Below, one piece after another: positions 191 to 31,652 of a DNA stretch of 64,000 bases. Below the pieces are notes generated by a model that saw nothing but the letters and a program-made list of their open reading frames with translations, made no database searches and had not been told where the DNA came from. Position numbers and translations under genes: made by a program. Source of the stretch: Desulfomicrobium macestii (GTDB taxonomy: Bacteria; Desulfobacterota; Desulfovibrionia; Desulfovibrionales; Desulfomicrobiaceae); the NCBI RefSeq assembly GCF_014873765.1, contig NZ_JADBGG010000021.1, positions 1 to 64,000 of the forward strand. The letters are read 5' to 3'. The first letter of the stretch is position 1; every line of letters starts with the position of its first letter.

Positions 191-380
191 GTGGGAATCC
201 TTGTTTTGTTGTTCAATTGCGTGGTAACAAAAGAACTACTACAGAATGAGGATCCCCTCAATCAAAATATCCAATTATTCTCGATAGATTTATGTTCCGG
301 CGACTTTACTAACAACCCCGAAAGTCGAGTTAGTTATTAAACAAGTTCTGAAGAAAAAAATGCAAAAAAATGATCATATA

Positions 381-1867
381 AATAGTCAGCCCTGAAAAAC
401 AGGACAAAATGTCGAAATTAATTGAAATTTAATCGGAGATAATGTATTTCAAATAACCAGTAATGCAGTGAAAAATGCATTTTTTCTGGTCGAAATCACT
501 CCGAGGTTACCAACGATGCAGCCCAAAAAATCGGACCGTCAGCGCAGCTTCCTCTGCCCAGATCTGATCGATCAACTCGATCCTCGAAACCACCTTCTGG
601 GGTTGGCCAAGGCCATCCCGTGGCAGGTCTTTGAAGACAGTTTTCGTCCGCTTTATGCTACGTCTGGCCGCCCTGCCAAACCCGTCCGGTTGATGGTCGG
701 GCTTCTCATCCTCAAGCAGCTTGAAAACCTCAGCGATGAGCGCGTCGTCGAGATTTGGGTCCAGAACCCCTATTTCCAAGCCTTTTGCGGCCAACAACGG
801 TTCACCTGGAAGCTGCCGTGTGATCCGTCCGAGCTGACCTATTTTCGGCGTCGCATCGGTGAAGACGGTGTGCGCAAGATTTTCGAAGTCTCCGTGACCC
901 TTCATGGCGACAAGGCCAAGGAAGAGGAAGTGGTCGTGGATTCCACCGTGCAGGAAAAAAACATCACCTTTCCCACGGACGCCAAGCTTCTGTCCAAGAT
1001 CGTAACGCGTTGCCGCATCATGGCCAAACAGGAAGACGTCAAACTCCGGCGCAGCTACCAGCGTGAAGTCAAAAAACTGCTGCGTGTCATTCGCTTCAAA
1101 TCAAAGGGCCGCAAACAGGGCGAGGCCCAGCGAGCGATCAAGCGTTTGCGGACTATTGCCGGAGTCCTGATCCGCGAAATGAAGCGGAAGCTTTCCTCGG
1201 AAGCACTTGAGGCCCACCAACAGTCTCTGGACCTCTACGACCGCGTTCAGCGCCAGCAGCGTTCCGATTCCAACAAAATTTACAGCCTCCATGAACCAGG
1301 CGTTTCCTGCATCAGCAAAGGCAAGGCCCACAAGAAATACGAGTTCGGAGCCAAGGCTTCTGTGACCGTGACCAAGACCAGCGGCATCATCGTTGGCGCC
1401 TTGTCCTTCCACGACAATCCTTTCGATGGTCATACCCTCCCTGCGGTGCTGACCCAGGTCGAGAGTATCGTAGGCCAAAGGCCAACCATGGCGATCTGCG
1501 ACCGGGGATATCGCGGCAAGCGTCAAATCGGGCCAACCCGCATCGAAATTCCAGAATCAGGCAAAGGGCCAAAAACGAAACACGAGAAGCGCAAAGCCAG
1601 AGAACGCTTTCGCCGCAGGGCCGCCATCGAACCAATCATCGGTCATTTCAAGAGTGATCACAGGATGATGCGAAACTACCTCAAAGGGCGGATCGGCGAT
1701 TCCGTGAACCTGTTCATGGCCTGCACTGCATTCAATTTCCGGAAGTTCATCCGGTTGTTGTATTTTTTGTGCCCCAAATTTTTGTGGCACATTTTTCGAC
1801 CCAATGTTCGGCCGGTACGGGCTTGCGCCTGAAAGGCCGTTTTTAGAGTTTTTCAGGGCTGACTAAT
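381..1867 (+). mobile_element. Complete IS5-type insertion sequence
   Basis: Perfect 17-bp terminal inverted repeats, agtcagccctgaaaaac at 384-400 and its reverse complement at 1848-1864, bracket one transposase gene. The flanking trinucleotide AAT occurs at 381-383 and again at 1865-1867, a plausible 3-bp target duplication. The element proper is about 1.48 kb. Its GC-rich codon use contrasts with the AT-rich DNA on both sides. Intact ends, matching flanks and an intact frame suggest a fairly recent insertion. Family assignment rests on the transposase. Confidence 0.85.
516..1832 (+). CDS. IS5-family DDE transposase
   Basis: A 438-residue transposase that would cut and join the ends of the surrounding insertion sequence. 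The N-terminal part (roughly residues 20-120, with a YFRRRIGEDG motif) matches the DUF772-type domain of IS5-like enzymes. The catalytic triad is visible: D142 in VVVDSTVQ, D329 in AICDRGYRG and E372 in RAAIEPIIGHFKSDHRM. A basic, helical insert of about 180 residues lies between the two aspartates. The frame could open earlier, at 468, but the ATG at 516 starts the family-like sequence MQPKKSDRQ and is preferred. The C-terminal tail after residue 420 is hydrophobic and basic. No frameshift is seen, so the enzyme may be active. Confidence 0.9.
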   Translation: MQPKKSDRQRSFLCPDLIDQLDPRNHLLGLAKAIPWQVFEDSFRPLYATSGRPAKPVRLMVGLLILKQLENLSDERVVEIWVQNPYFQAFCGQQRFTWKLPCDPSELTYFRRRIGEDGVRKIFEVSVTLHGDKAKEEEVVVDSTVQEKNITFPTDAKLLSKIVTRCRIMAKQEDVKLRRSYQREVKKLLRVIRFKSKGRKQGEAQRAIKRLRTIAGVLIREMKRKLSSEALEAHQQSLDLYDRVQRQQRSDSNKIYSLHEPGVSCISKGKAHKKYEFGAKASVTVTKTSGIIVGALSFHDNPFDGHTLPAVLTQVESIVGQRPTMAICDRGYRGKRQIGPTRIEIPESGKGPKTKHEKRKARERFRRRAAIEPIIGHFKSDHRMMRNYLKGRIGDSVNLFMACTAFNFRKFIRLLYFLCPKFLWHIFRPNVRPVRACA

Positions 1868-2041
1868 TAGTTGCTGCAAAAGACACCTTGAACTTTCTGT
1901 AACCATCATTGTAGACACAATTTTAATTTTTCAACTAGCACTCAAAACATTATATATGCCATGCTAAATAAAAATTAAAAAAAATATTATTACATTTTGA
2001 CACCACTTATAAATAAAAATAATACAAATAGTGAAAAACAA

Positions 2042-3571
2042 ATGAAAAAATACAGTAAAAACATAGACATAGAATACCTTGTTAATAACAACTTATGGAG
2101 CACAGATATACCATTAAAACTGCATTTAGGGTGTGGGAAAAAAATATTTAAAGGATATGTCAACATTGATTACCCTTCAGAAAAACATAATATTGTTAAT
2201 GTAAAGCCTGACATTGAAATTGATATTTTAAAATTAAATTTCGGTGCAAACCAAATAGACGAAATCCGTCTTCATCATGTATTCGAACATTTTAACAGGG
2301 TAACGGCACTAGGATTATTGATTCGATGGACTGAATGGCTAAAGGATGGAGGAAAACTCATCATCGAAACTCCAGATCTTATTGGGTGCGCACAAACCCT
2401 AGTAAGCGACGCGCCTTATAAGATTAAGGCTGCGATATCCCGACATCTGGCAGGAGACCAAACGGCAGAATGGGGATACCATATTGATCATTGGTTCGCA
2501 GACAGATTTTACAAGACCCTTACACTTTTCGGCTATGAAAACGTTCAAATTAAACAAGACAAATGGGATCACCCGCCGTATCTTTCAAATGTAATAGTTG
2601 TAGCAAGGAAAAAAAACATAATACCTCGAAACCTTCTCGTCGAAGCAGCTAATATGCTTTTAAAGGACTCACTTGTTTCGCATACAGAAATAAAATCTTT
2701 TAAAATATGGACAAATCAACTTAATTCTTTTTTAGATGACGACAAACATGATTCAAAAAATGATTATATAGCAAATAAGTTTACGATACAATCTATAACT
2801 GAAGCACTTAAAAATGAATGTGGAAAAATACGCTATCAAGAATTATTTGAAATGCTGCACGAATTCTCGCTAGCAGGAATGAACATTGGATGCAGTTGCG
2901 AATCTTATACAAATGGAGAATATTATATATTAAAATATATTAGCGATAAATATATTGAAAAACCAATAGTATTTGATGTCGGAGCAAATACAGGAGAGTA
3001 TACGATCAACGCAAACAAAGCATTTAAAAATAAAGCTACAATTTATGCTTTTGAACCGTCGAGAACAGCATATTCAATTCTATATAATAAATTTAGCGAC
3101 AATCATGACATTTTAACTTACAATATCGGCTTCGGCGAAAAATGCGAAAATAAAACATTATACTCAACAAAAAATAATTCACGCCTATCTAGTTTATATA
3201 AAAGAAACCTTGAACATGCAAAAATTACGATGGACACTGCTGAAAATATTACTATTGATACAATAGACGAGTTTTGCACAAAAAATAAAATAGGAAAAAT
3301 CACTTTGCTTAAATTAGACGTAGAAGGCCATGAACTTTTTGTCCTTCGTGGCGCAAAAAAAATGATCGAATCCAATAAAATTGATTACATCCAATTTGAA
3401 TTTGGCGGGTGCAACATTGACTCACAAACTTTTTTTAAAGATATATTTTTATTGTTATCAGAAAAATACAAAATATTTAGAGTTCTTAAAGATGGATTAA
3501 GAGAAATTGAAAAATATAAAGAATGCCATGAAATATTCATTTACTCTAATTTTCTTGCCATCGCTAAATAG
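2042..3571 (+). CDS. Two-domain methyltransferase: class I N-terminal domain plus FkbM-type C-terminal domain
   Basis: This 509-residue protein carries two SAM-dependent methyltransferase modules. The first has motif I LHLGCGKK at residues 27-34, an acidic ID pair at 42-43, and a predicted-methyltransferase pattern HHVFEHF. The second, from about residue 290, is FkbM-like, with FDVGANTGEY at 311-320, an acidic FEPS end of strand 2, and KLDVEGHE near 424-431. FkbM enzymes O-methylate sugars or other hydroxyls; the substrate here is unknown. A TTG at 1997 could extend the frame by 15 residues, but ATG 2042 is preferred; neither has a strong ribosome site. The gene is AT-rich, unlike the rest of the window, and heads a run of glycosyltransferases, so a role in decorating surface glycan is inferred. 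Confidence 0.8.
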   Translation: MKKYSKNIDIEYLVNNNLWSTDIPLKLHLGCGKKIFKGYVNIDYPSEKHNIVNVKPDIEIDILKLNFGANQIDEIRLHHVFEHFNRVTALGLLIRWTEWLKDGGKLIIETPDLIGCAQTLVSDAPYKIKAAISRHLAGDQTAEWGYHIDHWFADRFYKTLTLFGYENVQIKQDKWDHPPYLSNVIVVARKKNIIPRNLLVEAANMLLKDSLVSHTEIKSFKIWTNQLNSFLDDDKHDSKNDYIANKFTIQSITEALKNECGKIRYQELFEMLHEFSLAGMNIGCSCESYTNGEYYILKYISDKYIEKPIVFDVGANTGEYTINANKAFKNKATIYAFEPSRTAYSILYNKFSDNHDILTYNIGFGEKCENKTLYSTKNNSRLSSLYKRNLEHAKITMDTAENITIDTIDEFCTKNKIGKITLLKLDVEGHELFVLRGAKKMIESNKIDYIQFEFGGCNIDSQTFFKDIFLLLSEKYKIFRVLKDGLREIEKYKECHEIFIYSNFLAIAK

Positions 3572-3594
3572 ATTCAAACTTCATTAAATTTTAA

Positions 3595-5442
3595 ATGCGG
3601 AAGCATATTAAATTGAAAAAGACAAAATTAATATCTGCAATAATATTCAGCAAAGATAGAGCACTTCAACTCGAGCTGTGTCTTCGAACACTACTTAATA
3701 ACTGCATAGACTTCAACATAGCCAAAATACATGTTATTTACACATATAGCAATGATACAAACGCAAAACATTACGAATTACTCAAACAAGAATACAAAAA
3801 AATTCATTTTTGCAAAGAAACAAACTTTCATATAGACTTAATAAACTGCATCGGAGATGCGAAATTTATACTATTCATTGTCGATGACAACATTTTTATA
3901 AACAAATTTTCTATCACAACGACAACAGACATACTGAAAAATAATCACAACGCTATTGGATTTTCATTAAGACTTGGAAAAAATATAAAATATCACTACC
4001 CTTCAAACAGCGATCAAGTACAGCCAAAATTTACAAAAAAGGAAGAAAATATTTATTTTGCAAATTGGACACTGAACACTAAATATTTTGGATATCCTTT
4101 AGAAGTTTCTAGCTCTATATATAAATCAGACTTGATACTGCCGATTATTCTCTCTGACAAAACAATAAAAAACCCAAACTCTCTGGAGTCACAACTTCAT
4201 TTTTTTCGAAACAATTTCTTGAATTATCCTTTGTTATTTTTTTATGGACAGTCTGTTGCGTTCTGCAACCCACTTAATATTGTCCAGACAGAATATTTGA
4301 ACCGGCATTCCGGCGGATTACAAAATAGCGCTAAATATTTCGCAAATTGTTTTGAAAAAGGCGAACGACTTTTCCCGAATGGGCTAAATGATTTTATACC
4401 CGATTCGTGCCACCAAGAAGTAAAAGTTCAAACAAATAATGAATATTTTTACGAACCTTTTATTTCTATATGCATTCCAACATATAACAGAGACAAATAT
4501 ATTAAAGAATCAATAGAAAGCGCTCTTGCACAAAATTACGACAAATTCGAGATTGTTATCGTTGACGACGGCTCCACTGACAATACAGAAAATATCGTCA
4601 GATCCATTAAATCTGACAAAATTAGATACGTAAAAAAAGAGCATTCAAATGCACCAGATACGCGTAACATATGCATTCAAGAGGCCGAAGGCGAATTCAT
4701 CCTCTGGCTGGACAGTGATGACCATCTTGCCATCGACTTGTTAACACGATTTCAAGAACTGTTAGCCGATTTCCCCGACATTGATGTCTGCTACGGAGAT
4801 GTCCTGCCGTTTGGTAACACAGGAACCTTTGCCAACAAAACCATCCGTTACGCCGACTATTATAAAAAAAACAACGAACTGCTTGCCGAACTGGTCACCG
4901 GCAACAAAATCCCAAACCCGGGCACCTTTATCAGAAAGGATCTTTTCAATCGTGTGGGCGTGTACGACATTCAGTTCAAGCGAGCTCATGACTATGAGTT
5001 CTGGATTCGCTCGGCTCCGGTGGCCAAATTCAAACACATCGAGGGGATTTCGGTTCGATGGCGGTGGCACGAAAGCAACATGTCTGCAAGCAACAAAATA
5101 CTGGACACATCTTACGAATCTTCAATTCTAAAAAAACTGGTCCAGCAACATCCTATTGAAATACTCTTTCCTCTTTATGATTGGAATAATCAAAAATTTT
5201 CTTCATTTCTTGCTCATGGAGAAATTGCAATGATGTTTTTGAAGTGGAAAAATATATTTCAGTACACATTGCACTTAAAAAAAGCTATAAAATCAATATA
5301 TTTTAAAATTAAATTTCCAGACGATCATTCTTTACAACTTAAAATATTATCTAAATGTTACATTGAAATTTTTAATCAGACCAAAAATGTTTACTTTCAA
5401 GAGATGGCACGTATAGCGCTGAATGTGTCTAAAATAATTTAA
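3595..5442 (+). CDS. Glycosyltransferase family 2 with a second, divergent GT-A-like N-terminal domain
   Basis: The 615-residue protein ends in a clear GT2 domain: ISICIPTYNRDKYIKESIES begins near residue 290, VIVDDGSTDN follows, the DxD-type metal site is WLDSDDH near 370, and the acceptor-side HDYEFWIR lies near 463. The first 285 residues (ISAIIFSKDRALQLELCLRT, VDDNIF) look like a diverged GT-A fold whose catalytic competence is unclear. It should transfer a sugar from a nucleotide donor onto a growing glycan at the cytoplasmic membrane face. Composition is uneven: roughly 4680-5090, encoding the GT2 core, is distinctly GC-richer than the AT-rich flanks of the same gene, which suggests recombination. 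Start ATG 3595 follows the previous gene by 23 bp. Confidence 0.85.
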   Translation: MRKHIKLKKTKLISAIIFSKDRALQLELCLRTLLNNCIDFNIAKIHVIYTYSNDTNAKHYELLKQEYKKIHFCKETNFHIDLINCIGDAKFILFIVDDNIFINKFSITTTTDILKNNHNAIGFSLRLGKNIKYHYPSNSDQVQPKFTKKEENIYFANWTLNTKYFGYPLEVSSSIYKSDLILPIILSDKTIKNPNSLESQLHFFRNNFLNYPLLFFYGQSVAFCNPLNIVQTEYLNRHSGGLQNSAKYFANCFEKGERLFPNGLNDFIPDSCHQEVKVQTNNEYFYEPFISICIPTYNRDKYIKESIESALAQNYDKFEIVIVDDGSTDNTENIVRSIKSDKIRYVKKEHSNAPDTRNICIQEAEGEFILWLDSDDHLAIDLLTRFQELLADFPDIDVCYGDVLPFGNTGTFANKTIRYADYYKKNNELLAELVTGNKIPNPGTFIRKDLFNRVGVYDIQFKRAHDYEFWIRSAPVAKFKHIEGISVRWRWHESNMSASNKILDTSYESSILKKLVQQHPIEILFPLYDWNNQKFSSFLAHGEIAMMFLKWKNIFQYTLHLKKAIKSIYFKIKFPDDHSLQLKILSKCYIEIFNQTKNVYFQEMARIALNVSKII

Positions 5443-5627
5443 AGTAAAATTTTTTCATTGTTATAAAATTTTACTTATTTATTATGAAGATAATGCGACC
5501 ATCTCTAGATACGATATTCCGATATCTCCTCTCGAACCTCGTATCATGATTATTGAAAAGCTCTTGGATCAGCGACTAAGAGTCACCAGTACACAAATAT
5601 TATGGCTTACGCATAATTTGACAACCG

Positions 5628-6344
5628 ATGACAAATCCCGGCCAGCGCAGAATTGGAAACCACCGCACGGAGAACAAACATCAACCTCATGGATACACGA
5701 ACTTGAAATACGAACATGAGTATGGATACTGGCTGAACCGCTTCAGACAGGAAAATGAAAACTTGAGCAATTCACACTTTGCTAGTCGTATGCTGCTTAT
5801 GGCCGAAGAAGAAAATGATGAATTTCTTTGCGGAAAAATAGTCGCAGACTTCGGCTGCGGACCCAGAGGCAGCCTCTCCTGGACAAACGCTCCGTTACTA
5901 CGCATCGGCATTGACGTACTTATACCTGATTATCTGACATCTTTCGGAAAGTGTATGCGTGAACACGGCATGACATACATCACCTGCACCGAAAAAATTA
6001 TTCCAATCCAATCCTCGATAGTCGATGTCATGTTTACAATTAACGCACTGGACCATGTGGACGACTTTGAGCGCATGACCCACGAAATACTCCGCGTCCT
6101 CAAACCGGGAGGACTTTTCATTGGCAGCCTGAATCTCAATCAACCCGCAACTCCTTGCGAACCTCAAACCCTCACGGATATCAGCGTAAGAAAAAACCTG
6201 TTGAAATTTCTAAACTTATCCTCATATCGCTTAGCAAAAATCCACCCAAAGACACCTTATAAATTCATGATTGAAGACAAGCTATCAGACTCTTATGATA
6301 ACGACGAGCAATACATTTTATGGGTTAAAGGAACAAAAAAGTAA
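5628..6344 (+). CDS. Class I SAM-dependent methyltransferase
   Basis: A 238-residue protein with a Methyltransf_11-like core. Motif I is VADFGCGPRG near residue 70. IGIDVLIPDY supplies the acidic residue after strand 2. INALDHVDDFERM and VLKPGGLFIGSLNL form the later motifs. It probably methylates a sugar or small molecule; the substrate cannot be read from the sequence. It lies 185 bp after a glycosyltransferase and 5 bp before another, so it likely belongs to the same glycan operon. Its composition is intermediate between the AT-rich neighbours and the GC-rich genome. Confidence 0.85.
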   Translation: MTNPGQRRIGNHRTENKHQPHGYTNLKYEHEYGYWLNRFRQENENLSNSHFASRMLLMAEEENDEFLCGKIVADFGCGPRGSLSWTNAPLLRIGIDVLIPDYLTSFGKCMREHGMTYITCTEKIIPIQSSIVDVMFTINALDHVDDFERMTHEILRVLKPGGLFIGSLNLNQPATPCEPQTLTDISVRKNLLKFLNLSSYRLAKIHPKTPYKFMIEDKLSDSYDNDEQYILWVKGTKK

Positions 6345-6349
6345 ACAAT

Positions 6350-7615
6350 ATGTGCGATACAAACGATAAAGCAAAAAAAAATATACTTTATGTAATACAT
6401 GGCTACCCACCTCGCAACCATGCAGGAACAGAAAACTATTCTTATTCATTAGCGAAAGAAGTTTCAAAAAAAAAATTTAACGTTGCTTCTTTTTACCCCA
6501 TCATATATAATAATCTAGCAAAATCTGAGCTAAATATAAAAAAAATTAACAACCACACCGCATTTGAAGTTAAAACAAAACCTTCAAATCACATCAATAA
6601 TCTATTTAACATTGAAATAGAAAATATATTTTTACAAGTAATTAAAGCATTTAACCCTGATATAATTCACTTTCAACACACACATACAGTACTTCCATTC
6701 TCTCTTTTAACATTATCTATTTCTTTGAAAATTCCTACGTTAATTACATTGCACGACTTTTGGTACATATGCCCTAGAACTTATATGCTTAATAACGACG
6801 GAACGCTTTGCACCGGTCCAACAACTCCAGAAAAATGCACAAAATGTTTTTTAAAAAATGAATACTTGAGAGAAATTAATAACAAAAATATATTTTATTA
6901 CTTAGTAGATCTTTTTACAAAAAGATTAGAGCTGTCTCGTTTAATATTTTTAAATGCAAACCTAGCGACAGCTCCATCCAAATATTTATTAGATAAATAT
7001 AAAGAATACCTCACATTCGATAAAAGCGCACGCCTTCCACTTGGTCTTGACGTAACGATACAACATTTTGAAAAAAAAATTAATAGGCCGATAAGGTTTG
7101 GCTTCCTAGGCAATATTACTTTATTAAAAAATGTACACGGACTAATAGACTCTTTTTTGCGAACATCAGGAGAAGCCTTTCTTCATATTTATGGAAAAGT
7201 ACACGATAATTACATTCTAGAAACTCTAAAAAATATATCTTTAACAGATTCTCGAATCATATTTCATGGATGTTACTCGCCCAGCGATTTGCCTAAAATA
7301 TTTTCTCAAATCGATATTGGAGTTGTTCCTTCTTTCTTTGAAAATTACCCTCTTGTCGTTCGAGAATTTTTGAGCGTCAAGATACCTGTTATTGCATCAC
7401 GCGTTGGCGGCATTCCAGAAATTATAGAACACAATAAAAACGGTCTTCTTTTTGATCCGTTGTCAAAAGACGATCTATTCAATATTTTACAAGACATTAT
7501 TGATAACCCTGATCTAATTTCTAAACTTTCCTCTCAAATCAGCAACATAAAAACTATAGACCAAGATGCATCTGTTTGGTCTGAAATTTACAAATCTCTT
7601 GCGTTTAAGCCTTAA
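6350..7615 (+). CDS. Glycosyltransferase family 4
   Basis: This 421-residue protein has a GT-B fold of the GT4 type. The N-terminal half holds YVIHGYPPRNHAGTENYSYS, the usual glycine-rich acceptor loop, and THHD-like LITLHDFWYICPR. A cluster of cysteines follows (CTGPTTPEKCTKCF), as in several GT4 enzymes. The C-terminal nucleotide-sugar half has FGFLGNITLLKNVHGL and the E-x7-E region GVVPSFFENYPLVVREFLS followed by VGGIPEIIEHNKNG. It should extend a surface polysaccharide or a protein-linked glycan. The gene is strongly AT-rich, with many AAA, ATA and TTA codons, which points to acquisition by transfer. Confidence 0.88.
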   Translation: MCDTNDKAKKNILYVIHGYPPRNHAGTENYSYSLAKEVSKKKFNVASFYPIIYNNLAKSELNIKKINNHTAFEVKTKPSNHINNLFNIEIENIFLQVIKAFNPDIIHFQHTHTVLPFSLLTLSISLKIPTLITLHDFWYICPRTYMLNNDGTLCTGPTTPEKCTKCFLKNEYLREINNKNIFYYLVDLFTKRLELSRLIFLNANLATAPSKYLLDKYKEYLTFDKSARLPLGLDVTIQHFEKKINRPIRFGFLGNITLLKNVHGLIDSFLRTSGEAFLHIYGKVHDNYILETLKNISLTDSRIIFHGCYSPSDLPKIFSQIDIGVVPSFFENYPLVVREFLSVKIPVIASRVGGIPEIIEHNKNGLLFDPLSKDDLFNILQDIIDNPDLISKLSSQISNIKTIDQDASVWSEIYKSLAFKP

Positions 7616-7643
7616 AAATGAACTAACATAAATTTTACAACTC

Positions 7644-8768
7644 ATGAGCACATCAATAATAATACCCACACTTAACAATGCGAGCCTCATCTATTCTTGT
7701 ATAAAATCAATACTTAAAGTTAACACCATTGCTGACACTGACATTATAGTTATAGACAACGCATCAACCGACGAAACAAAATTTCTTCTCCAAAATTTCA
7801 CTAACTCAATCAAGCTAATCACAAATAATGCAAACCTCGGATTTTCAAAAGCATGTAATCAAGGGGCAAAGTCATCACGCGCTGATTTTTTAATTTTCCT
7901 CAACAATGACACAGAAGTTACAAGAGGATGGCTTGAAGGGCTTCTGCGCTGCTTGCATAGTAATTTTCCAAATAGTAATTTTCCAAATAGTAATTTTCCA
8001 ACTGGTATCGTCGGTTGCAAACTTCTTTATCCTGACAGTACCGTTCAACATGCAGGAGTAGCTTTTAGCTCCATAAAAGTTCACCATATTTACAGAAACT
8101 TCGCCCCCTCTCATCCTGCTGTCAATAAACAACGTGAGTTCCAGGCTGTCACCGCTGCTTGCATGCTGGTTCCGCGAAAACTCTTTCTTTCCCTCGGAGG
8201 ATTCGACGAATCCTTCATCAACGGATTCGAAGATCTCGATTTCTGTTTCCGAGCTAGAAGCAAGGGATACAAGGTGATGTACACACCTGAAAGCGTCGTC
8301 ATCCACCACGAAAGCAAAACTCCCGGCCGCCACGATCACCATGCGCATAATGCCCGCCTTTTCGCCTCTCGTTGGTTGTCCAATGTTGATCACGATCTGG
8401 ACAAAATCTATGCAGAAGACGGATTGCGGCGACATCTTGAGTACGAAGAAAAACTGGGCGGGAAATGGCTCGAAGATTCGAATCCAAACCACTTCTGGAA
8501 CCAGGCCAGATCCTTGGTAATTTCTGGCGAATATGTTGAGGCCGAAAAATTTTTTGGCCAGGCATTGTCCTTCAATCCATACGACGTCCGCAGGCTCTCC
8601 ATCGCTGAAGAGCTTTCCGACCTGTACATGAAGTGGGGTCGAGTATCGGACGCGGAGCAATGCCTTGACGCCGTCATCCAGGTAACGCCCTCGAAGCGCC
8701 TTCTCCAGAAAAAAGCTCGGATCGCAATGATGGCAACTCACCTTCCTTCGGATTTATCCCAAAAATGA
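7644..8768 (+). CDS. Glycosyltransferase family 2 with C-terminal TPR-like repeats
   Basis: The 374-residue protein begins with a rhamnosyltransferase-like GT2 domain: SIIIPTLNNASLIYSCIKSI, VIDNASTDET, NLGFSKACNQG and the DxD-type FLNNDTEV near residue 90. GGFDESFINGFEDLDFCFRA is the catalytic-base region. Residues about 285-350 form helical TPR-like pairs (SGEYVEAEKFFGQALSFNP, WGRVSDAEQCLDAVI), which may hold a partner. An in-frame 15-bp tandem repeat gives the peptide SNFPNSNFPNSNFP just before the conserved GIVGCKLLYPD strand. The first 450 bases are AT-rich; from about 8120 onward the gene is GC-rich, so it looks chimeric. Its stop overlaps the next start by 4 bp. Confidence 0.87.
   Translation: MSTSIIIPTLNNASLIYSCIKSILKVNTIADTDIIVIDNASTDETKFLLQNFTNSIKLITNNANLGFSKACNQGAKSSRADFLIFLNNDTEVTRGWLEGLLRCLHSNFPNSNFPNSNFPTGIVGCKLLYPDSTVQHAGVAFSSIKVHHIYRNFAPSHPAVNKQREFQAVTAACMLVPRKLFLSLGGFDESFINGFEDLDFCFRARSKGYKVMYTPESVVIHHESKTPGRHDHHAHNARLFASRWLSNVDHDLDKIYAEDGLRRHLEYEEKLGGKWLEDSNPNHFWNQARSLVISGEYVEAEKFFGQALSFNPYDVRRLSIAEELSDLYMKWGRVSDAEQCLDAVIQVTPSKRLLQKKARIAMMATHLPSDLSQK
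7957..8001 (+). repeat. Three perfect copies of a 15-bp in-frame tandem repeat
   Basis: The unit atagtaattttccaa occurs three times without a mismatch and encodes NSNFP units inside the glycosyltransferase at 7644-8768. Because the unit is a multiple of three, changes in copy number alter loop length, not reading frame. Confidence 0.95.
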
Positions 8769-9799
8769 ACGCAAACCACTGCATCAAAATCGCCGTCTAC
8801 TCCTTGGATCTCCCCCATTACGCCTGTGCTGATTTGCGAATTGTGACCCCTTTTCGAAGACTTCGAGAGCATCTGGATTTCAGATGGGCAGTTCAGGATT
8901 GCAACGGACAATCGCGAATTGACGCTGATCCTGTCGAATGGGCTGACCTCATTGTCGTTCAACGCTATTTTCCACTCAAGGAAACATCCCCGCTCCTGGA
9001 CATCATTCTTGCCTCTGGCAAGCCCGTTGTATTCGAAATTGATGACTTTCTGCTCGATGTTCCACCGACGCACCCCCTTTACCACAATTTTCAAAAGACA
9101 GCTCCATTCATCCGTCAACTCATCCCCAAAGTGGATATCGTGACCGTGAGCACTGACGCCCTGCGTGATCGTATTCTCAAATTCAACCCGAACACGGTGA
9201 CGCTTCCAAACTTCATTGACGAGGCGGCCGTCACGCCAGCCATTCCTGTAGCAGACCCTACGAAAACCGTCATCGCGTACATGGGCAGCCCGACGCATGA
9301 CCAGGACCTCAAGCTCATCGAGGACGCACTCTTCCGGGTCAAAGAGAAATTCGGGGAAGCGACTGAATTTATTTTCTGGGGATGCGCGGGCACGCGACTA
9401 GCAAAACTGGGCAGGGTCATTCCATTCGACGACAGCTACGCATCGTTCCTTAAAACCCTTGGCAAAATCCATTTCGACATCGGGCTTGCGCCCCTGGCAG
9501 ACAACCCATTCAACTGTTGCAAAAGCAATATCAAATGGTTGGAATACTCCGCTCACGCCCGGGCAGGAATTTTCTCGGATCTGGAGCCCTACCGCGAAAG
9601 CGTGGAGCATGGAAAAACGGGGATGCTGGTCGGAGACGACCCGAAAGAATGGTTTGAAGCGCTGGAATATCTAATCTCTAACCCCGACCAAAGAAAAGCC
9701 ATGGGCCGAGCGGCCCGTAAGGACGCTTTTGCCCGTTTCGGACTTTCAAAGGGCGTGCACCGCTATCTGGAACTCTACAGGGGCTTGCTGAAGCGATAG
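8765..9799 (+). CDS. Glycosyltransferase (GT-B type, family 1/4-like)
   Basis: This 344-residue protein starts with KIAVYSLDLPHYACADLRIV, has the WADLIVVQRYFP and KPVVFEIDDFLLDVP segments typical of a glycosyltransferase group seen in O-antigen and glycoprotein loci, and ends with a nucleotide-sugar domain (VIAYMGSPTHDQDL, FDIGLAPLADNPFN, KWLEYSAHARAGIFSDLEPY, GKTGMLVGDDPKEW). No signal peptide or membrane segment is seen. It begins inside the stop of the previous gene (ATGA overlap), so the two are translationally coupled. Base composition is that of the GC-rich host genome. It ends only 14 bp before the convergent operon. Confidence 0.82.
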   Translation: MNANHCIKIAVYSLDLPHYACADLRIVTPFRRLREHLDFRWAVQDCNGQSRIDADPVEWADLIVVQRYFPLKETSPLLDIILASGKPVVFEIDDFLLDVPPTHPLYHNFQKTAPFIRQLIPKVDIVTVSTDALRDRILKFNPNTVTLPNFIDEAAVTPAIPVADPTKTVIAYMGSPTHDQDLKLIEDALFRVKEKFGEATEFIFWGCAGTRLAKLGRVIPFDDSYASFLKTLGKIHFDIGLAPLADNPFNCCKSNIKWLEYSAHARAGIFSDLEPYRESVEHGKTGMLVGDDPKEWFEALEYLISNPDQRKAMGRAARKDAFARFGLSKGVHRYLELYRGLLKR

Positions 9800-9813
9800 C
9801 AATACACTTGAAT

Positions 9814-11037
9814 TTATACACTTCTTCCCTGGTGATGAGCCGACCATCGTCTACAAACATCCTGCAACACTTCGTCACGCGTTTTCACTGCCCAGTGCTG
9901 AAGGGCCATAAATTTTCTTGGAATGTCCTTTGAAGCCGCTTCCTCACGCAATTTCTCAAAGGTGTTGCGACAATTTGTCAGCAATTCCGCATCACCCAGT
10001 CTGCTGGCTACCCGGGCTAAACCAGTGACCACTTTTTCCGTCGAAAAATAACTCTGCTGCAACTGGAGGACATCCAACGCAGCATCCCACATCCCTTGTT
10101 TAAAGAAAAAATCCAGCAGGCGTTCATACCCTGCCTCCCACAAAGGTTCCGCGAGAACTTCCGCCCAAAGGCGCTCCATCCCAAAACCTTTTGTTTCGCC
10201 TTCGGAACGAACGCACACGATGTTTGCTGTAAGGGTCGAGGTGAGCCGGAGTTCATAACCGTCCGCATGTGCAAACAGGTGCATGTCCGGATAAAACGCT
10301 CCTTGGCAACGACGGGCAAGCACCTGTGAATTGTGACTCTCCGCGTTAAACCGCCCTGGTGTCTGGCTGGTAAGATGGTAAATCCGGCTTGCCGGCTCGC
10401 AACGCAACGTCAGCCCCAGTGAACGAATCTTCCAGCACAAATCCAGATCTTCGTAACCGTTGCGGTACTCTTCCCAAAATCTTCCCGCTTGCCCGAAAAC
10501 TCCGGCCGGGATCATGAGCGCGGCGCCCGTTATGGCCTGCAGATTCCGTTCGCGTTGAACAACCGGATGCGTGCTTGGAAAATTGTGATACAAATGAGTG
10601 ACGTGATTGGTAGGTGTGAAAGTGACGCCCAGATGCTGGACACGATCCTGGTCCGGATAAAGCAAAAGCGGCCCCACTGCACCAAGCTCCGGCCTGACCT
10701 CGAACGCCCGCAACAGCGGCGGCAGCCACCCTGGGGTCAACAGCGTATCGTTATTCAGAAAAAACAAATAATCCGCGTTCGCCCGCCCTGCGCCCAGGTT
10801 GCAACCCGGTCCGAAATTGATGTTTTCATCCAGGCGCAAATGCTTAAAACGCTCCCCGAACAATTCTTGCCCGAGAACCCCGCATGACCCAGCAGTCTCG
10901 TCCGTGGAACCGTTGTCGACCACGATGACCTGCACATCCTCGTCCGGCGTGTGCTCACGCAGGCTGCGCAGGCAGTCCGCCGTAAGCGCCCACTGGTTGA
11001 ACACGGGAATGATGATCGCAACTCTATACTGTCCCAT
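9814..11037 (-). CDS. Glycosyltransferase family 2
   Basis: A 407-residue GT2 enzyme: VAIIIPVFNQWALTADCLRS, VIVVDNGSTD, NINFGPGCNLGAGR and the DxD-type FFLNNDTLL, followed by YRNGYEDLDLCWKIRS. The rest (about residues 260-407) is helical and probably contains TPR-like helices, as in the plus-strand enzyme at 7644-8768, which it resembles in layout. ATG 11037 is preferred over a TTG at 11052 because GAGG sits 9 bases before it. It is the last gene of a four-gene minus-strand glycosyltransferase operon. Confidence 0.87.
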   Translation of the reverse strand: MGQYRVAIIIPVFNQWALTADCLRSLREHTPDEDVQVIVVDNGSTDETAGSCGVLGQELFGERFKHLRLDENINFGPGCNLGAGRANADYLFFLNNDTLLTPGWLPPLLRAFEVRPELGAVGPLLLYPDQDRVQHLGVTFTPTNHVTHLYHNFPSTHPVVQRERNLQAITGAALMIPAGVFGQAGRFWEEYRNGYEDLDLCWKIRSLGLTLRCEPASRIYHLTSQTPGRFNAESHNSQVLARRCQGAFYPDMHLFAHADGYELRLTSTLTANIVCVRSEGETKGFGMERLWAEVLAEPLWEAGYERLLDFFFKQGMWDAALDVLQLQQSYFSTEKVVTGLARVASRLGDAELLTNCRNTFEKLREEAASKDIPRKFMALQHWAVKTRDEVLQDVCRRWSAHHQGRSV

Positions 11038-11048
11038 AATGTTCTGCC

Positions 11049-11774
11049 TCAATCAATTTCCCGGAAATCTCCGGCCATCAGTTTCACATGTTCACGGTAA
11101 TCCGAACCAAATCTACCCGCGAGATACCCCGCCTCCGCCTCGGCCGCCCGCGCCATGAACCCATTCACCTCGCGGGCGGTGGAATGGTATTTGTGCCGGA
11201 TGACGACTTGATGATCTACAACGCAGGCAAATCCCGACTCCTGCGTCCGGCTTGAAAACCAGACATCCACACCGTAGCCGTACGGGTTGCCACCAAAATC
11301 AACGCCCCCTGCCCGCTTCCAGAATTCGACGCTGACCAGCGGCGCGATCCCGTCCACGTAACGCACCTGCCTGAACTGCCCCCCGGGCCGTTCCACCATC
11401 TGCGGGTGGTAGGGATTGGCCGTCACTGCCGGGGAATACACGCCCACCGGCCCGACCAGACGCTCTGCCCGGACCAGGCGCAGACACGCGCGCTCGATGA
11501 GCGGAGGCTTCGAGACAAAGGTCGCATCGTTGTTCAGAAACCAGACATGGGACGCGCCCTTGCTTGCCAGAATTCCCATTACCCGCTCCAGCGCACCGGC
11601 CCAGTAAAGATTTTCCTCGCCCCTCAGCCAGGCGTTTTCATACGGTTCGGGGCTGGCGTTGTCGAAAACCAGAATCCTGTCCCGCCGCGCGGGGTCGCTC
11701 TCCATCAATTGCCAGTGCAGCTGTTTCGTGCGCGCAGCAGGCCCATAGTGCAGGATCACGGTGTAAAGATTCAT
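11049..11774 (-). CDS. Glycosyltransferase family 2, short form
   Basis: A 241-residue protein with a compact GT2 domain: YTVILHYGPAARTKQLHWQL, RILVFDNASPEPY and the DxD-type VWFLNNDATFV. A later GVDFGGNPYGYGVDVWFSSR segment corresponds to the acceptor/catalytic region. It is near the minimum length for a GT-A fold and has no membrane segment. Its start overlaps the stop of the upstream gene by 4 bp (11771-11774), so they are coupled. The sugar transferred is unknown. Confidence 0.82.
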   Translation of the reverse strand: MNLYTVILHYGPAARTKQLHWQLMESDPARRDRILVFDNASPEPYENAWLRGEENLYWAGALERVMGILASKGASHVWFLNNDATFVSKPPLIERACLRLVRAERLVGPVGVYSPAVTANPYHPQMVERPGGQFRQVRYVDGIAPLVSVEFWKRAGGVDFGGNPYGYGVDVWFSSRTQESGFACVVDHQVVIRHKYHSTAREVNGFMARAAEAEAGYLAGRFGSDYREHVKLMAGDFREID

Positions 11775-12955
11775 GCCGGAGTCCCGAACAGCCGCTTCAT
11801 GTTCGCGCAGATCGTTGCCATGCGATGGCCGTAAGAGTGCTCCTTTTCGATGCGTTGCCGAGCGCGCAGGGCAATCCGTTCACGCGAGGACGAATTGGCC
11901 AGATAATGACGCACAAGATCGCCGATCTCTTCCACATCTCGGTAGCAGACAACTTCCTTGCCCAGCTCGAAAGCGGCGGCAAGCTGCTCGCGGTAATCCG
12001 TCAGCAGAAAGCCGCCACTGGCGGGCACGTCGAAGACGCGCTGGTTGAGGGCCCCTTTCATCTGCATGCTGGTGGTGTTGAAATTGATTCTGGTCGATCG
12101 GTAGAAACCTGGCAGGTCGGAATAATAATGCAATGGGCCCACGTAGGTCCACGAAGCATCCCCGAGCAGCGGCCGCCAGTGCTCGTCTCCGGCCACCACC
12201 GGTTCAAACGGAAGAAGCGCCTGCACGCATTTCAATCTGTGCAGCTGGGTCGCCCGCCAGTACACGAAGCTGTCCAGAGCGGCCCTTGGCGACGGCTCGC
12301 AGGCTTCGCGCAATCTCCCGGCTTCAGAATTTTCCCGGCCGACAAATTCGGACAGATCACGCGTATCGCTGGCGGTGAATTTCCCCGCCACATCCTCCCA
12401 AAACCCTCGCAATCTGTCCGACTGTGCTGAAAGCGCCCAGCATTTTTCCTGGGCTGCCTGCATGGAATTGCCCACGAACGCCACGTTGCGCAGGGGCAAG
12501 GCGTCCGGAACAAAGTGAATGCGGCTCAGATCGACGGCGAGGGGAAGATGAAAGGCCGCACCGTGCCCCGCATCTGCAAGGGGCTCAATAGCATCGGCAT
12601 CCCAGACGGCGTAGGCGAGACAGGGGTTGTCCAGATTGCGGTACTGCGGAAGAAAAAGATCCGGGCGGTCCACGAACCAACTGAGCAGCGGCAGTTCGCG
12701 CTGACGGCAAAATTCGCTGACCAGCCCTTCGCGATCAAGGCCAAGGTGATTCATGGTCAACAGAAAATCGGGCGCGAACCGGTCCACTTCGACGCGCAAC
12801 TTTTCTTCAAGCTCCGCGGCCGAAGAAATCCCGCCCAGAAAAAGATAGGCATGCTCAAGACCCCGGGCCTGACAGCCACAGATCAGTTCGGCCATGAGAT
12901 AATGCTTTGCCGAGATAAGCAGTATTCTGGGCTGCTTGCGGGCAGATCGGTTCAT
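11771..12955 (-). CDS. CgeB-like glycosyltransferase
   Basis: The 394-residue protein has an N-terminal Rossmann-like half (RILLISAKHYLMAELICGCQ) and a C-terminal domain of the Glyco_trans_1_2 type found in CgeB-like proteins: LNQRVFDVPASGGFLLTDYR, then ELGKEVVCYRDVEEIGDLVR and RIEKEHSYGHRM. Such genes are frequent in flagellin- and LPS-glycan loci of Desulfovibrionales. ATG 12955 overlaps the upstream TGA as ATGA and is chosen over an upstream in-frame start at 13009, which would lie inside the previous gene. Confidence 0.8.
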   Translation of the reverse strand: MNRSARKQPRILLISAKHYLMAELICGCQARGLEHAYLFLGGISSAAELEEKLRVEVDRFAPDFLLTMNHLGLDREGLVSEFCRQRELPLLSWFVDRPDLFLPQYRNLDNPCLAYAVWDADAIEPLADAGHGAAFHLPLAVDLSRIHFVPDALPLRNVAFVGNSMQAAQEKCWALSAQSDRLRGFWEDVAGKFTASDTRDLSEFVGRENSEAGRLREACEPSPRAALDSFVYWRATQLHRLKCVQALLPFEPVVAGDEHWRPLLGDASWTYVGPLHYYSDLPGFYRSTRINFNTTSMQMKGALNQRVFDVPASGGFLLTDYREQLAAAFELGKEVVCYRDVEEIGDLVRHYLANSSSRERIALRARQRIEKEHSYGHRMATICANMKRLFGTPA

Positions 12956-13944
12956 AAGGCTGTACGCCCGCTTTTTGCGGACTCCGACAACGCGGCCACG
13001 ATCTCGCATTTTTGAGCGTCACTGCCATAGGCGCCTGCCGTCTGAGCCGTTCGGGCGAGAATGTCCAGATTGCGGGGCAAGGCTTGCGCCGCCCGCTCAA
13101 GGCCCAGCGCCGCACCCAGCACGTCACCGTCCGCAAACCACCAGCCGTTGCCGCCCCACGGCACATCGCGAGGCACATACCCATGCGGCGCATATCCATC
13201 CGGCTCTATCTGCCGCATGTAATCCCACCCGCCAAAGCCGGTGAAGCCCACGCACATACAGCCGCAGGCCATGGCTTCAAGGGGCGGGAGCGGACAGCCC
13301 TCGGGGAATCCCGTGACCAGAAAAACATGGCAGGAACGCAGTGCCTCGGCCACGCCGGGGCGGTCCAGGCCGTGGATGGGCACCCATTCCACCTTTACGC
13401 GCGGGTTGCGCTCCTCGAAGATGCGCCGGATCTGCTCGGCCAGAGCCTTGTTCTTGCGGGGCATGAAGCCGATGCGTAGCGCTCCGCCGGGTTTTGACGC
13501 CGGAGGATGAAAAAGCTCCGTGTCCAGAGCGGGGCGGATGATCCGCGGCCTCTTGCCCAGCACCTGCTCCATGTGCCAAGCCACGGGACCTGATACGGCC
13601 AGAAAGTCCACGGGCAGATCCCGCCAGTGCACGCCCGCCTCCAGGCCATGAAAGAGATAGGACCAGTTCTGGCAGTAGACCAGGGTCCGGCAGCCGCGCT
13701 TCAGACCCGGCACCAGGGCATTGGGCCAGCCTTCGGGAACCACGTAGATGTCCCCGGCCGCCATGGCCGCCGTGCTGGCCCGCACCCAGGGCAACCCCGC
13801 GCACTCGGCCCCGCCCGGCGGCTCATCCCAATACAGAATCCCGCCCAGCCTGCCCAGGACGTGCAACTGCCGGGCGATCTGCAAAAGCACCATGCACCCT
13901 CCGGACATGGCCTTGAGCGGTGGATAGAAAATCCACGTTTTCAT
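12952..13944 (-). CDS. Glycosyltransferase (GT4-like), first gene of the minus-strand operon
   Basis: A 330-residue GT-B-type protein: TWIFYPPLKAMSGGCMVLLQ, VYCQNWSYLFHGL, VSGPVAWHMEQVLG, LRIGFMPRKNKALAEQI and the C-terminal donor site FPEGCPLPPLEAMACGCMCV. The frame stays open upstream to 14283, but that extension is a translated intergenic repeat (it contains VIPAKAGIHS, a known artefact of such repeats), so ATG 13944 is chosen. It heads the run 13944 to 9814, all on one strand with overlapping or nearly touching ends. Confidence 0.82.
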   Translation of the reverse strand: MKTWIFYPPLKAMSGGCMVLLQIARQLHVLGRLGGILYWDEPPGGAECAGLPWVRASTAAMAAGDIYVVPEGWPNALVPGLKRGCRTLVYCQNWSYLFHGLEAGVHWRDLPVDFLAVSGPVAWHMEQVLGKRPRIIRPALDTELFHPPASKPGGALRIGFMPRKNKALAEQIRRIFEERNPRVKVEWVPIHGLDRPGVAEALRSCHVFLVTGFPEGCPLPPLEAMACGCMCVGFTGFGGWDYMRQIEPDGYAPHGYVPRDVPWGGNGWWFADGDVLGAALGLERAAQALPRNLDILARTAQTAGAYGSDAQKCEIVAALSESAKSGRTAL

Positions 13945-14054
13945 GGCCGCACCCGAAATCGTCCGGACTGAAATTTGACTGAAAATAACGCCATGGTGTT
14001 CCCTGAGCAAAATAAAGGCCATGCACCGAAATGGACCATCTCGGAGAGGGGCGC

Positions 14055-14240
14055 TGCAAAAAGTCGTCATCCCCTTGAAGAAGGGGATCCATGCTTTTTT
14101 AACTATCTGAAAAGAATGGATTCCCGCCTTCGCGGGAATGACACTCGGGTTCTTTTGCGACTTTTTGCAGTGTCGTCTGGAAAGACATGGGTTCCCTCCG
14201 TTACAGGAATGACGTCCAGGTTCTCTCGCGACTTTTTGCA
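14055..14240. repeat. MITE-like composite intergenic repeat
   Basis: A 186-bp block bounded by inverted 12-mers, tgcaaaaagtcg at 14055-14066 and its complement at 14229-14240, with a further copy of the complement at 14158-14169. Inside are three hairpin units of one family: 14066-14092 (inverted), 14116-14142 and 14187-14213. The second is a 27-mer whose core is ttcccgccttcgcgggaatg and is identical to a copy at 60682-60708. The block fills the 345-bp gap between two minus-strand genes and has no coding content of its own. Confidence 0.8.
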
Positions 14241-14289
14241 ATGAGACATTTAACTGACGTACGCCAGAGTACGTCTTCAGCATAGTCCT

Positions 14290-15417
14290 CTACAGCTTGT
14301 TCAGCCACTCAGAAAAGAACGGATCTACCACTCGCCAGACACCCTCTTCTGTTTTCTCGATCAGATCTTCGCGCAGCAAAATTTCACGGATATCCGAAAT
14401 GGAAGAAGACGGCAGTTCCGCCTTGACCACAAATTCGGCGCTAGTGAGCTGAGCACTCGGATTGGCGGACAACGTCTTGAGCAATTTCAATTGCCGCGTG
14501 GTCAGCGGAGCGATCATGGTCTCGTACAAGCCGGATTCTGATTGAATCACCCTCATTTTTGCAAGCTCCACGTCTTCCAACGTCACGTCGCGGCCGCTGC
14601 GCTCATAAACCTCGCTGGCCAGGCGCTGTACGTAAAAGGGATATTGTCTGGCCGCCGCAACAAGAGCGGCGCTCACTTGCGGATCGATGTGCCTACCTTC
14701 CTGCGCAAAAAAAGAGGCTATGCATTGGGATGTATCCGAAATGGGCAGAGGAGGCAGGAACATCTTCACGGCGGAGAGCGTCAAAAAACGTTTCTGATCG
14801 CTGAACATGGCCAACAGAAGGCTTCGCCTGCTCCCGGAAAAAACGAACGAGGCCGGCAAGCCTTGGATGGTTTTTCGCACTATGCCTTCCACGGCTTGGG
14901 ATTCGGCAAGCTTGGTCAAATCCTGAAATTCGTCCATGACTACGTGGCAAGGCCATTCCCGTGATTCTATGATTCGCGCCAAATCTTCGAGAGTCTGTTC
15001 CAGCAAAGTTCGGGGATCCTGGGTCTCATTGGCACGCGTCACGGATATGGCGGCCTCGCCGGAATGATCGAATGTCAAGACCGGACGAAACGCACTCAAG
15101 GCGTTCAACCAGCGTTTTCCCCTGGCCAACAGTGATTCCCGGGCGTGCAAGGTCTTGAACATGTCGCGGGCAAGACGGCGGGCGATCTCAGAGACGCCAT
15201 CGACACCGGAAAAATCAAATGCAAAGCAAAGATATCCCTCATCGTGCAGAATCTTCTGCACCTTCCGGCACAAGGATGTCTTTCCGTACCTGCGCGGCGA
15301 GGCAAGCACCATATTCTGCGTGGCCCTGGCGCAACGCAGGAGTTGTTGCACTTCTTCCTGACGATCACAAAAAGGATCGCCCTCTCCAAGCACTTCAAGA
15401 CGAAAAGGATTAGGCAT
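14290..15417 (-). CDS. AAA+ ATPase with C-terminal winged helix (archaeal-ATPase-like)
   Basis: A 375-residue P-loop ATPase. Walker A is ASPRRYGKTSL at about residues 39-49; Walker B is HVVMDEFQDL; a sensor-like FVFSGSRR follows. The C-terminal 90 residues (LTTRQLKLLKTLSANPS, SSSISDIREILLREDLIEKT, WRVVDPFFSEWL) form a winged-helix domain. The family is widespread, often on mobile or sporadic loci, and its function is not established; DNA-linked or toxin/stress roles have been suggested. ATG 15417 has GGAGG at good spacing, so a longer frame to 15513 is rejected. An inverted repeat covers this ribosome site. It stands alone between the glycan operon and an acyl-CoA synthetase. Confidence 0.8.
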   Translation of the reverse strand: MPNPFRLEVLGEGDPFCDRQEEVQQLLRCARATQNMVLASPRRYGKTSLCRKVQKILHDEGYLCFAFDFSGVDGVSEIARRLARDMFKTLHARESLLARGKRWLNALSAFRPVLTFDHSGEAAISVTRANETQDPRTLLEQTLEDLARIIESREWPCHVVMDEFQDLTKLAESQAVEGIVRKTIQGLPASFVFSGSRRSLLLAMFSDQKRFLTLSAVKMFLPPLPISDTSQCIASFFAQEGRHIDPQVSAALVAAARQYPFYVQRLASEVYERSGRDVTLEDVELAKMRVIQSESGLYETMIAPLTTRQLKLLKTLSANPSAQLTSAEFVVKAELPSSSISDIREILLREDLIEKTEEGVWRVVDPFFSEWLNKL

Positions 15418-15430
15418 AATTCCGGAACCT

Positions 15431-15464
15431 CCGTTACGGAAATGTCGTAACGGAAGATCCGTAA
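15431..15464 (-). promoter_or_regulatory. Inverted repeats over the ATPase leader; possible operator
   Basis: CCGTTACG at 15431-15438 and CGTAACGG at 15446-15453 form a perfect 8-bp inverted repeat with a 7-bp spacer, and a further half-site TCCGTAA lies at 15458-15464. The inner arm overlaps the GGAGG ribosome site of the ATPase gene. It could be a repressor operator or an RNA hairpin that hides the ribosome site. Confidence 0.4.
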
Positions 15465-15500
15465 AAGTCAAGGCAGGCCCCCTTGAGCAACAGCCGCCAC

Positions 15501-15530
15501 AAAAAAAGGCCACACATCACGCATGGCCTC
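15501..15530 (-). terminator. Rho-independent terminator downstream of the acyl-CoA synthetase
   Basis: Read on the minus strand, AGGCCA (15529-15524) pairs with TGGCCT (15512-15507) and is followed by a run of seven T. The stem is short but resembles the efp terminator at 25713-25750. It would separate the acyl-CoA synthetase from the ATPase gene. Confidence 0.55.
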
Positions 15531-31323: not shown

Positions 31324-31652
31324 TGGAAGCCCTCGCCGCCCTGATCATCGCCGTTCTCATCGGTTGCGGGACGTACCTGACGCTATGCGCCCGGACCTTC
31401 TCCGTGGTTCTCGGGCTCTCGCTCATGTCCTACGCGGTCAACCTCTTCCTCTTTTTCAGCGGCCGTCTGGTCACCGGTGCACCGCCTCTGGCCACAAACA
31501 TCGGAGCCACGGCCGACCCCTTGCCCCAGGCGCTGGTCCTGACCGCCATCGTCATCGGTTTCGGCATGACCGCCTTCGTGGTCATCCTGGCCTTGCGCGC
31601 CCTTGGAGAGCTGGGCACCGACCAGGTCGACGGAGAGGACGAAAAACCATGA
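31323..31652 (+). CDS. mrpC: Mrp antiporter subunit C
   Basis: A 109-residue, three-helix membrane protein of the NuoK/MrpC type: LIIAVLIGCGTYLTLCARTF, VVLGLSLMSYAVNLFLFFSG and DPLPQALVLTAIVIGFGMTA, the last carrying the conserved DPLPQALVLTAIVI signature. Its ATG overlaps the TGA of mrpA by one base. It is an essential part of the hetero-oligomeric antiporter. Confidence 0.93.
   Translation: MEALAALIIAVLIGCGTYLTLCARTFSVVLGLSLMSYAVNLFLFFSGRLVTGAPPLATNIGATADPLPQALVLTAIVIGFGMTAFVVILALRALGELGTDQVDGEDEKP

Follow-up and report, generated by a model that had tools for sequence, protein, structure and literature searches.

In-frame mosaic joints in two glycosyltransferase genes of an AT-rich glycan island in Desulfomicrobium macestii

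The first 64,000 nucleotides of contig NZ_JADBGG010000021.1 of Desulfomicrobium macestii (assembly GCF_014873765.1), hereafter the window, carry two glycosyltransferase genes, 3595–5442 (GT3595) and 7644–8768 (GT7644), whose base composition changes inside the reading frame. An earlier note on this DNA had read such borders as traces of recombination that replaced the substrate-determining parts of the enzymes. This raises the question of whether the two genes are mosaics and, if they are, where the joints lie and what was exchanged. Comparison with related genomes makes it very probable that a glycan island was exchanged by homologous recombination between related bacteria, with crossovers inside GT2 genes that left chimeric enzymes behind. 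The joints, the signal at synonymous positions, the in-frame positions and two distinct right-hand joints within about 75 bases were observed directly.

Sequences and comparisons

W denotes the window sequence and G-numbers the genomes of relatives; G009 and G013 belong to the same genus as W. The genome of the window is an assembly of 99 contigs, and G009 consists of one contig. Breaks were located by third-position identity, by identity at fourfold sites and by the identity of codons that specify the same amino acid in both sequences, a synonymous-only measure. DNA identity and the GC content of third codon positions (GC3) were profiled in overlapping windows, of 40 codons for 7644–8768 against G013, and steps in GC3 were located with a change-point scan and permutations. 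The ends of blastn alignments overrun the true change points slightly.

The joint in gene 7644–8768

On the evidence of PF00535 and their motifs, both products are predicted to be GT2 (GT-A) glycosyltransferases. In the product of 7644–8768, PF00535 scored 87.1 bits (cut-off 23.3), and TPR_19 at its end reached 22.3 bits, below the cut-off of 25. The gene is made up of the following parts.

7644–8003, forward strand: island half of GT7644, residues 1–120, with NND at 87–89; 49–54% amino-acid identity to G013 and G009
7957–8001, forward strand: perfect tandem repeat of three 15-base units, in frame, encoding the peptide NSNFP; directly left of the W/G013 joint
8004–8078, forward strand: joint zone, in which W resembles G013 and G009 differs; W/G013 joint at 8004–8016, G009 joint at 8079
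8079–8768, forward strand: conserved half of GT7644, with ED at residues 196–197 and a TPR-like end; runs on into the conserved flank

DNA identity between W and G013 is 47–55% in windows starting at 7644–7869, 70% at 7944 and 91–97% at 8019–8544; the two final windows of the gene reach 88% and 92%. The long W/G013 alignment begins at 8004 and extends gap-free over 3,825 bases at 93.5%; upstream of it just 7739–7867 aligned, at 68%. Third-position identity rises from 0.32 to 0.89 with a break at 8016 (log-likelihood ratio, LLR, 59.2; maximum of 1000 permutations 10.5). Identical fourfold sites number 3 of 18 before 8004, 18 of 20 in 8004–8135 and 69 of 86 beyond (87/106 after 8004), and same-amino-acid codons are identical in 20 of 57 cases before the joint, 38 of 43 in 8004–8135 and 162 of 187 beyond (200/230 after 8004). 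Since the synonymous positions break as well, the joint is best explained by recombination. In the control gene 8765–9799 the fourfold sites are identical at 136 of 157 positions between W and G013 and at 122 of 162 between W and G009.

The W/G009 and G013/G009 comparisons both break at 8079 (LLR 34.1 and 29.8; maxima of 1000 permutations 9.3 and 8.0). Residues 121–145 (8004–8078) are almost identical in W and G013; between W and G009 only 4 of 20 same-amino-acid codons are identical there, against 145 of 188 further on. The two distinct breaks, 8004–8016 and 8079, therefore point to at least two exchanges with joints within about 75 bases. In all three pairs (W/G013, W/G009 and G009/G013) blastn starts the conserved right block at 31–32% of the gene. 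The NSNFP repeat was not present in G013, G009 or G012, the three relatives compared.

Trees of the two halves were built from 22 rows, that of the C-half with long-branch warnings. In the N-half tree W, G013 and G009 still group (support 80/86, not starred), and a constraint holding W and G013 together was not rejected (p-AU 0.37). The W–G013 path measures 1.48 for the N-half, as against 0.032 for the C-half. Since the topologies of the halves do not conflict significantly, the exchanged half would have come from within the subfamily, from a diverged member of it.

A single-sequence structure prediction for GT7644 was of low quality (mean pLDDT 47.9) and was set aside, as were weak PADLOC matches in its TPR-like end (E 6.6e-5) and in a neighbour in G009 (E 3e-5).

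The joint in gene 3595–5442

The second gene encodes an N-terminal module (residues 1–282), a GT2 domain from about residue 287 (PF00535 at residues 291–429, 105.1 bits, cut-off 23.3) and a tail.

3595–4440, forward strand: N-module of GT3595, residues 1–282, no Pfam match, rare in the order
4441–4908, forward strand: opening part of the GT2/GT-A domain, including DSDD at residues 373–376; 93% amino-acid identity to G009; holds the old GC step at 4681
4681–5106, forward strand: GC-rich block named in the earlier note, GC3 0.60 between 0.30 and 0.22
4909–5442, forward strand: remainder of the GT-A domain, then the C-terminal tail, another allele than that of G009; 64%, then 37% amino-acid identity

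Between W and G009, third-position identity changes at 4489 and 4909, from 0.55 to 0.84 and then to 0.37 (LLR 37.5; maximum of 100 permutations 10.0). Four control genes, pooled, had 753 of 1122 same-amino-acid codons identical between W and G009 (range 0.60–0.78). The N-module resembles them (119/187; p 0.36), residues 299–438 lie above them (106/130; p 0.0006), and residues 439–504 (19/38; p 0.035) and 505–615 (13/38; p 7e-5) fall below. The allelic break at about 4909 is solid; that at 4489 is softer because of the range of the controls.

An older event is recorded further upstream. Of 199 genomes of the order, that of the window among them, 6 carry the N-module, one of these (G144) having only a match of E 7e-5 over 69 residues; a scan of genome contigs for relatives of gene 3595 gave one distant match, which was uninformative. 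In a tree of GT2 domains (25 rows, three long branches reported) the ones behind the N-module in W and G009 cluster together with G015 and G024 (92/86, not starred), and those of G018, G020 and G170 fall in another clade; a single clade for the five was rejected (log-likelihood 51.6 lower, p-AU 0.0002). Because these GT2 domains do not form one clade, a domain swap near nucleotide 4440 is indicated, one that would predate the split of W and G009.

Base composition and the joints

GC3 was scanned in the 47 open reading frames (ORFs) retained in the window that have 200 codons or more. The earlier note had seen a GC-rich segment at about 4680–5090 and an AT-to-GC switch near 8120, and had asked for sliding-window GC plots; GC3 is flat across neither gene. 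In 3595–5442 the two best breaks fall at 4681 and 5107 (GC3 0.30, 0.60 and 0.22; LLR 24.1, matched by none of 200 permutations on a coarser grid), and in 7644–8768 the best single break falls at 8136 (0.31 to 0.57; LLR 13.0, matched by none of 500), so the scan places the steps close to where they had been seen. With two breaks allowed, 3595–5442 ranks first of the 47 and 7644–8768 fourth; with one break 7644–8768 is third, after 31364–33145 and 12952–14283, and 3595–5442 lies outside the first eight. GC3 steps this large inside ORFs are thus uncommon in the window and not unique to these genes. Since stronger single steps occur in those two other ORFs, GC3 steps alone are weak evidence of recombination and no proof of it.

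The largest single step among the 47, in 31364–33145 (0.46 to 0.79, LLR 20.5), may reflect a misplaced start or a further mosaic.

What the note had proposed on this basis held in part. Joints do lie within both reading frames, as the comparison with relatives revealed, but the GC borders themselves are not the joints. In 7644–8768 the replaced part is indeed the half bearing the presumed donor-binding motif, while the GC-rich core of 3595–5442 is not the exchanged unit. Its label of catalytic core fits roughly: the GC-rich block (residues 363–504) covers about the later two thirds of the GT-A domain and misses the domain start (residue ~287, nucleotide ~4453). Trees of separate segments, which it had also called for, gave a conflict in 3595–5442, at the border of N-module and GT2 domain and not at a GC edge. 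A GC step can therefore mark the neighbourhood of recombination and not the joint; the identity breaks lie some 60–230 bases from the GC steps, those of 7644–8768 (8004–8016 and 8079) about 60–130 bases before its step.

The island and its flanks

GC3 below 0.5 was found only in the five ORFs of 1997–8768 among the 47, and these encode methyltransferases and GT2 and GT4 glycosyltransferases; four measured genes to the right have GC3 of 0.60–0.71. Gene 7644–8768 straddles the right edge of this variable AT-rich island, which is for a glycan, probably a surface one to judge from its gene content. The remaining features of this part of the window are as follows.

379–1869, forward strand: IS5-family insertion element near the left end of the contig; transposase 468–1832 (NF033578, E 5.3e-145)
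1997–3571, forward strand: AT-rich methyltransferase gene of two modules (PF05050; GC3 0.26)
5628–6344, forward strand: island methyltransferase gene (PF08241, 36.1 bits, cut-off 21.2)
6350–7615, forward strand: GT4-type glycosyltransferase gene of the island (PF00534; GC3 0.24)
8765–11828, no strand assigned: conserved flank, within the 8004–11828 block that is 93.5% identical to G013 and gap-free

The methyltransferase gene 1997–3571 has an N-part (residues ~20–247) and an FkbM domain (residues 327–489); on a module map its N-part adjoins the N-module of 3595 in G018, G020 and G170 also. The insertion element has 22-base inverted ends (arms 379–400 and 1848–1869, 95% complementary). As a cause of the mosaics it was dropped, its position being at no joint; searching plasmids with it yielded short matches alone.

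In G009 and G013 the corresponding island is bordered by an epimerase gene and, on the right, by the flank that W has too. Island content differs: no island gene of G013 is orthologous to the window genes left of the joint, and G009 has gene 3595 in common. The blocks that W and G009 have in common are 3428–5084 (77.7%) and 8008–13864 (82.9%), and between them only 7833–7942 matches, at 72%. In W the epimerase gene is on a separate contig (C78), its protein 93% identical to that of G009. Homology of C78 stops just past the gene in the comparison with G009; with G013 it stops about 70 bases short of the gene's end, so that among the three the left-side homology ends at or near the epimerase 3' end. 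C78 and the window's contig (C21) are presumably parts of one island.

Beside its 3595 gene G009 retains a match to residues 478–520 of the 1997–3571 methyltransferase (L034:9909–10037), and its ORF list has no ORF of at least 40 residues on that strand there; a leftover match without an ORF suggests that the methyltransferase side of this locus was also cut. Near this tail, in the island of G009, lies an ORF (L034:8739–8993) that by its motif resembles the end of an IS3-type integrase.

Gene 7644–8768 thus has signs looked for in a recombined border gene, namely identity that changes abruptly within a gene bordering a variable cluster, and a synonymous signal. The content of the cluster varies between strains and its flanks are conserved, the left flank by way of the presumed link to C78.

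Position of the joints in the GT-A fold

Both genes match solved GT2-type structures by sequence. GT3595 has DSDD at residues 373–376 and DYE at 466–468, with the joint at about residue 439; GT7644 has NND at 87–89 and ED at 196–197, with joints at residues 121–146. We take the DXD-type motif to bind the sugar donor and the later acidic pair to be catalytic. Both joints fall, in frame, between these motifs. With two genes only, this placement may be due to chance, or conserved DNA there may allow pairing. A bolder proposal, that in this lineage half a GT-A domain is the unit of glycan diversification and crossovers are favoured between donor-binding motif and acidic pair, seems to us rather unlikely; were it true, each exchange would bring a new sugar-donor half and retain the resident acceptor half, which suits the part of the pathway that is conserved. 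The chimeric enzymes would be expected to differ in substrate specificity. W, G013 and G009 form a natural series of glycosyltransferases alike in one half and different in the other; with such enzymes it could be tested directly whether the choice of sugar by a GT2 enzyme depends on its donor half alone.

Proposed exchange and alternatives

The variable AT-rich island would be bounded on its left by the conserved epimerase gene and on its right by a conserved glycosyltransferase block, and crossovers, presumably of the RecA type, would have taken place inside GT2 genes present as versions in both partners. The right edge cuts 7644–8768 at residues 121–146, joining an island donor-binding half to a resident acceptor half, and another edge, seen against G009, cuts 3595–5442 at about residue 439, again between the two motifs. 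The two mosaics may then mark either end of a single replaced block of about 4909–8079, in W or in G009; comparison with G015, G024 and G113 favoured neither direction at 4909. A single event is what we infer, and two are possible.

Several observations weigh against this exchange. A donor lineage for the exchanged part, another sign looked for in border genes, was not found. The best protein identity of the N-half of 7644–8768 among 16 genomes of the genus, the window's own included, is 55%, and a DNA comparison of 4909–8003 with 348 genomes of the order, shallow in taking two candidates per genome, gave besides the window one 74-base match at 76%. No significant break appeared in 7644–8768 against G012, a more distant version, and its halves show no significant topology conflict. 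The GC steps and identity breaks differ (8136 as against 8004–8016 and 8079; 4681 and 5107 as against 4909), and some conserved blocks end within other ORFs too, so that such an end is not special to 7644–8768. In 3595–5442 the synonymous-only break at 4912 (LLR 18.2) was set against just 30 permutations (maximum 13.4), and the excess identity of residues 299–438 is soft given controls of 0.60–0.78. Finally, the epimerase gene and the island are on different contigs of the draft assembly.

Uneven selection could by itself produce halves that descended together, the less constrained one evolving faster and GC following amino-acid or codon selection. The N-half is generally the faster in the trees (median end branch 0.45 vs 0.14), and the agreement of topologies suits this view. 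We regard it as quite improbable, however, because fourfold sites and same-amino-acid codons break too, the W–G013 path differs so greatly between halves, and the break coincides with the island-side end of continuous DNA homology; for 7644–8768 it is already contradicted. Gene conversion from a paralogue of the same genome, in place of exchange between genomes, might be thought of in a genome with many GT2 domains (22 matches). The N-half has its best matches in G013 (55%), G009 (53%) and G012 (50%), whereas within its own genome no other match exceeds 43% and no near-identical copy was found in the draft, which leaves this source very improbable. Scarcely any greater or lesser weight attaches to a chimeric assembly or misjoined contig. 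The assembly has 99 contigs, and near the left end of this one lie repeats and an IS5-family element, but the reading frames are uninterrupted, the halves meet in register at corresponding parts of a single domain, and G009 (on one contig) and G013 carry intact versions of their own whose mutual homology starts at the same position in the gene.

It is also improbable, though somewhat less so, that the GC-rich block 4681–5106 was itself inserted as a unit in place of the catalytic core, as the literal reading of the note would have it. Its GC3 contrasts with both sides, and in G015 and G024 the homologous domain is AT-rich throughout (GC3 at most 0.39 in every bin). G009, however, has the same rise (GC3 0.40, 0.57, 0.60 and 0.70 in overlapping windows from 4570, 4645, 4720 and 4795) at 88–92% DNA identity to W across 4681, so the step must be old, and the identity break at 4909 lies within the block. 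The step at 5107 is missing in G009, which is GC-rich there (0.72 to 0.53). Block insertion is possible as an old event predating the split of W and G009. Exchange of the island by homologous recombination is thus the reading that we prefer for the joints.

Other differences in the window and genome

A stretch of about 1.0 kb (11828–12844), comprising most of the glycosyltransferase gene 11771–13009, is missing in G013, where 3 bases lie between the flanks. About 1.5 kb with an AAA-ATPase gene (14021–15501; gene 14290–15513) is also missing there, the flanks being about 120 bases apart; homology to G012 and G006 halts before this stretch and resumes at 15501–15502. In the ORF 12952–14283, which has a GC3 step, the G013 ORF matches only from residue 92 on, and the true start is therefore probably downstream; its N-terminal part resembles a dispersed repeat (AKAGI-type peptide). 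Near the contig end, 100–331 is repeated at 91–94% in contigs C25 and C10 of the same genome and partly, at 93–99%, in C24 and C79. Another contig (L108, G000:C56) carries at 5350–8643 a glycosyltransferase frame of 1,098 residues with GT4, RgpF and GT2 matches.

Comparison with known systems

Both genes have the GT2/GT-A domain (PF00535), like the solved structures that they match, and differ in the additional N-module without a Pfam match (3595–5442) and the TPR-like end (7644–8768). The pneumococcal cps locus is likewise a polysaccharide locus with frequent recombination and mosaic loci and serotypes, but the parts of that account available to us describe loci and whole genes (PMC5850285), with no joint that halves a glycosyltransferase domain as here. 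The meningococcal capsule locus is mosaic as well, with a switch of ancestry inside the gene ctrE; in the portion of the report consulted this joint is outside a GT2 gene and donor species are proposed (PMC6619384), while none can be named here.

The closest likeness, within the sections of the paper available, is to the O-antigen clusters of Salmonella, where by divergence and GC content the rml gene beside the O-antigen-specific region tracks the O antigen, the rml gene at the cluster start tracks the subspecies, and where a recombination joint lies inside one rml gene (PMC3715488). There as here, a variable glycan cluster of low GC content moved between lineages and left mosaic edge genes; those edge genes make the nucleotide sugar dTDP-rhamnose, and here a glycosyltransferase is cut in its catalytic domain (PMC3715488). 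The case in D. macestii is clear and yet of a known kind, the rml border genes providing a close precedent.

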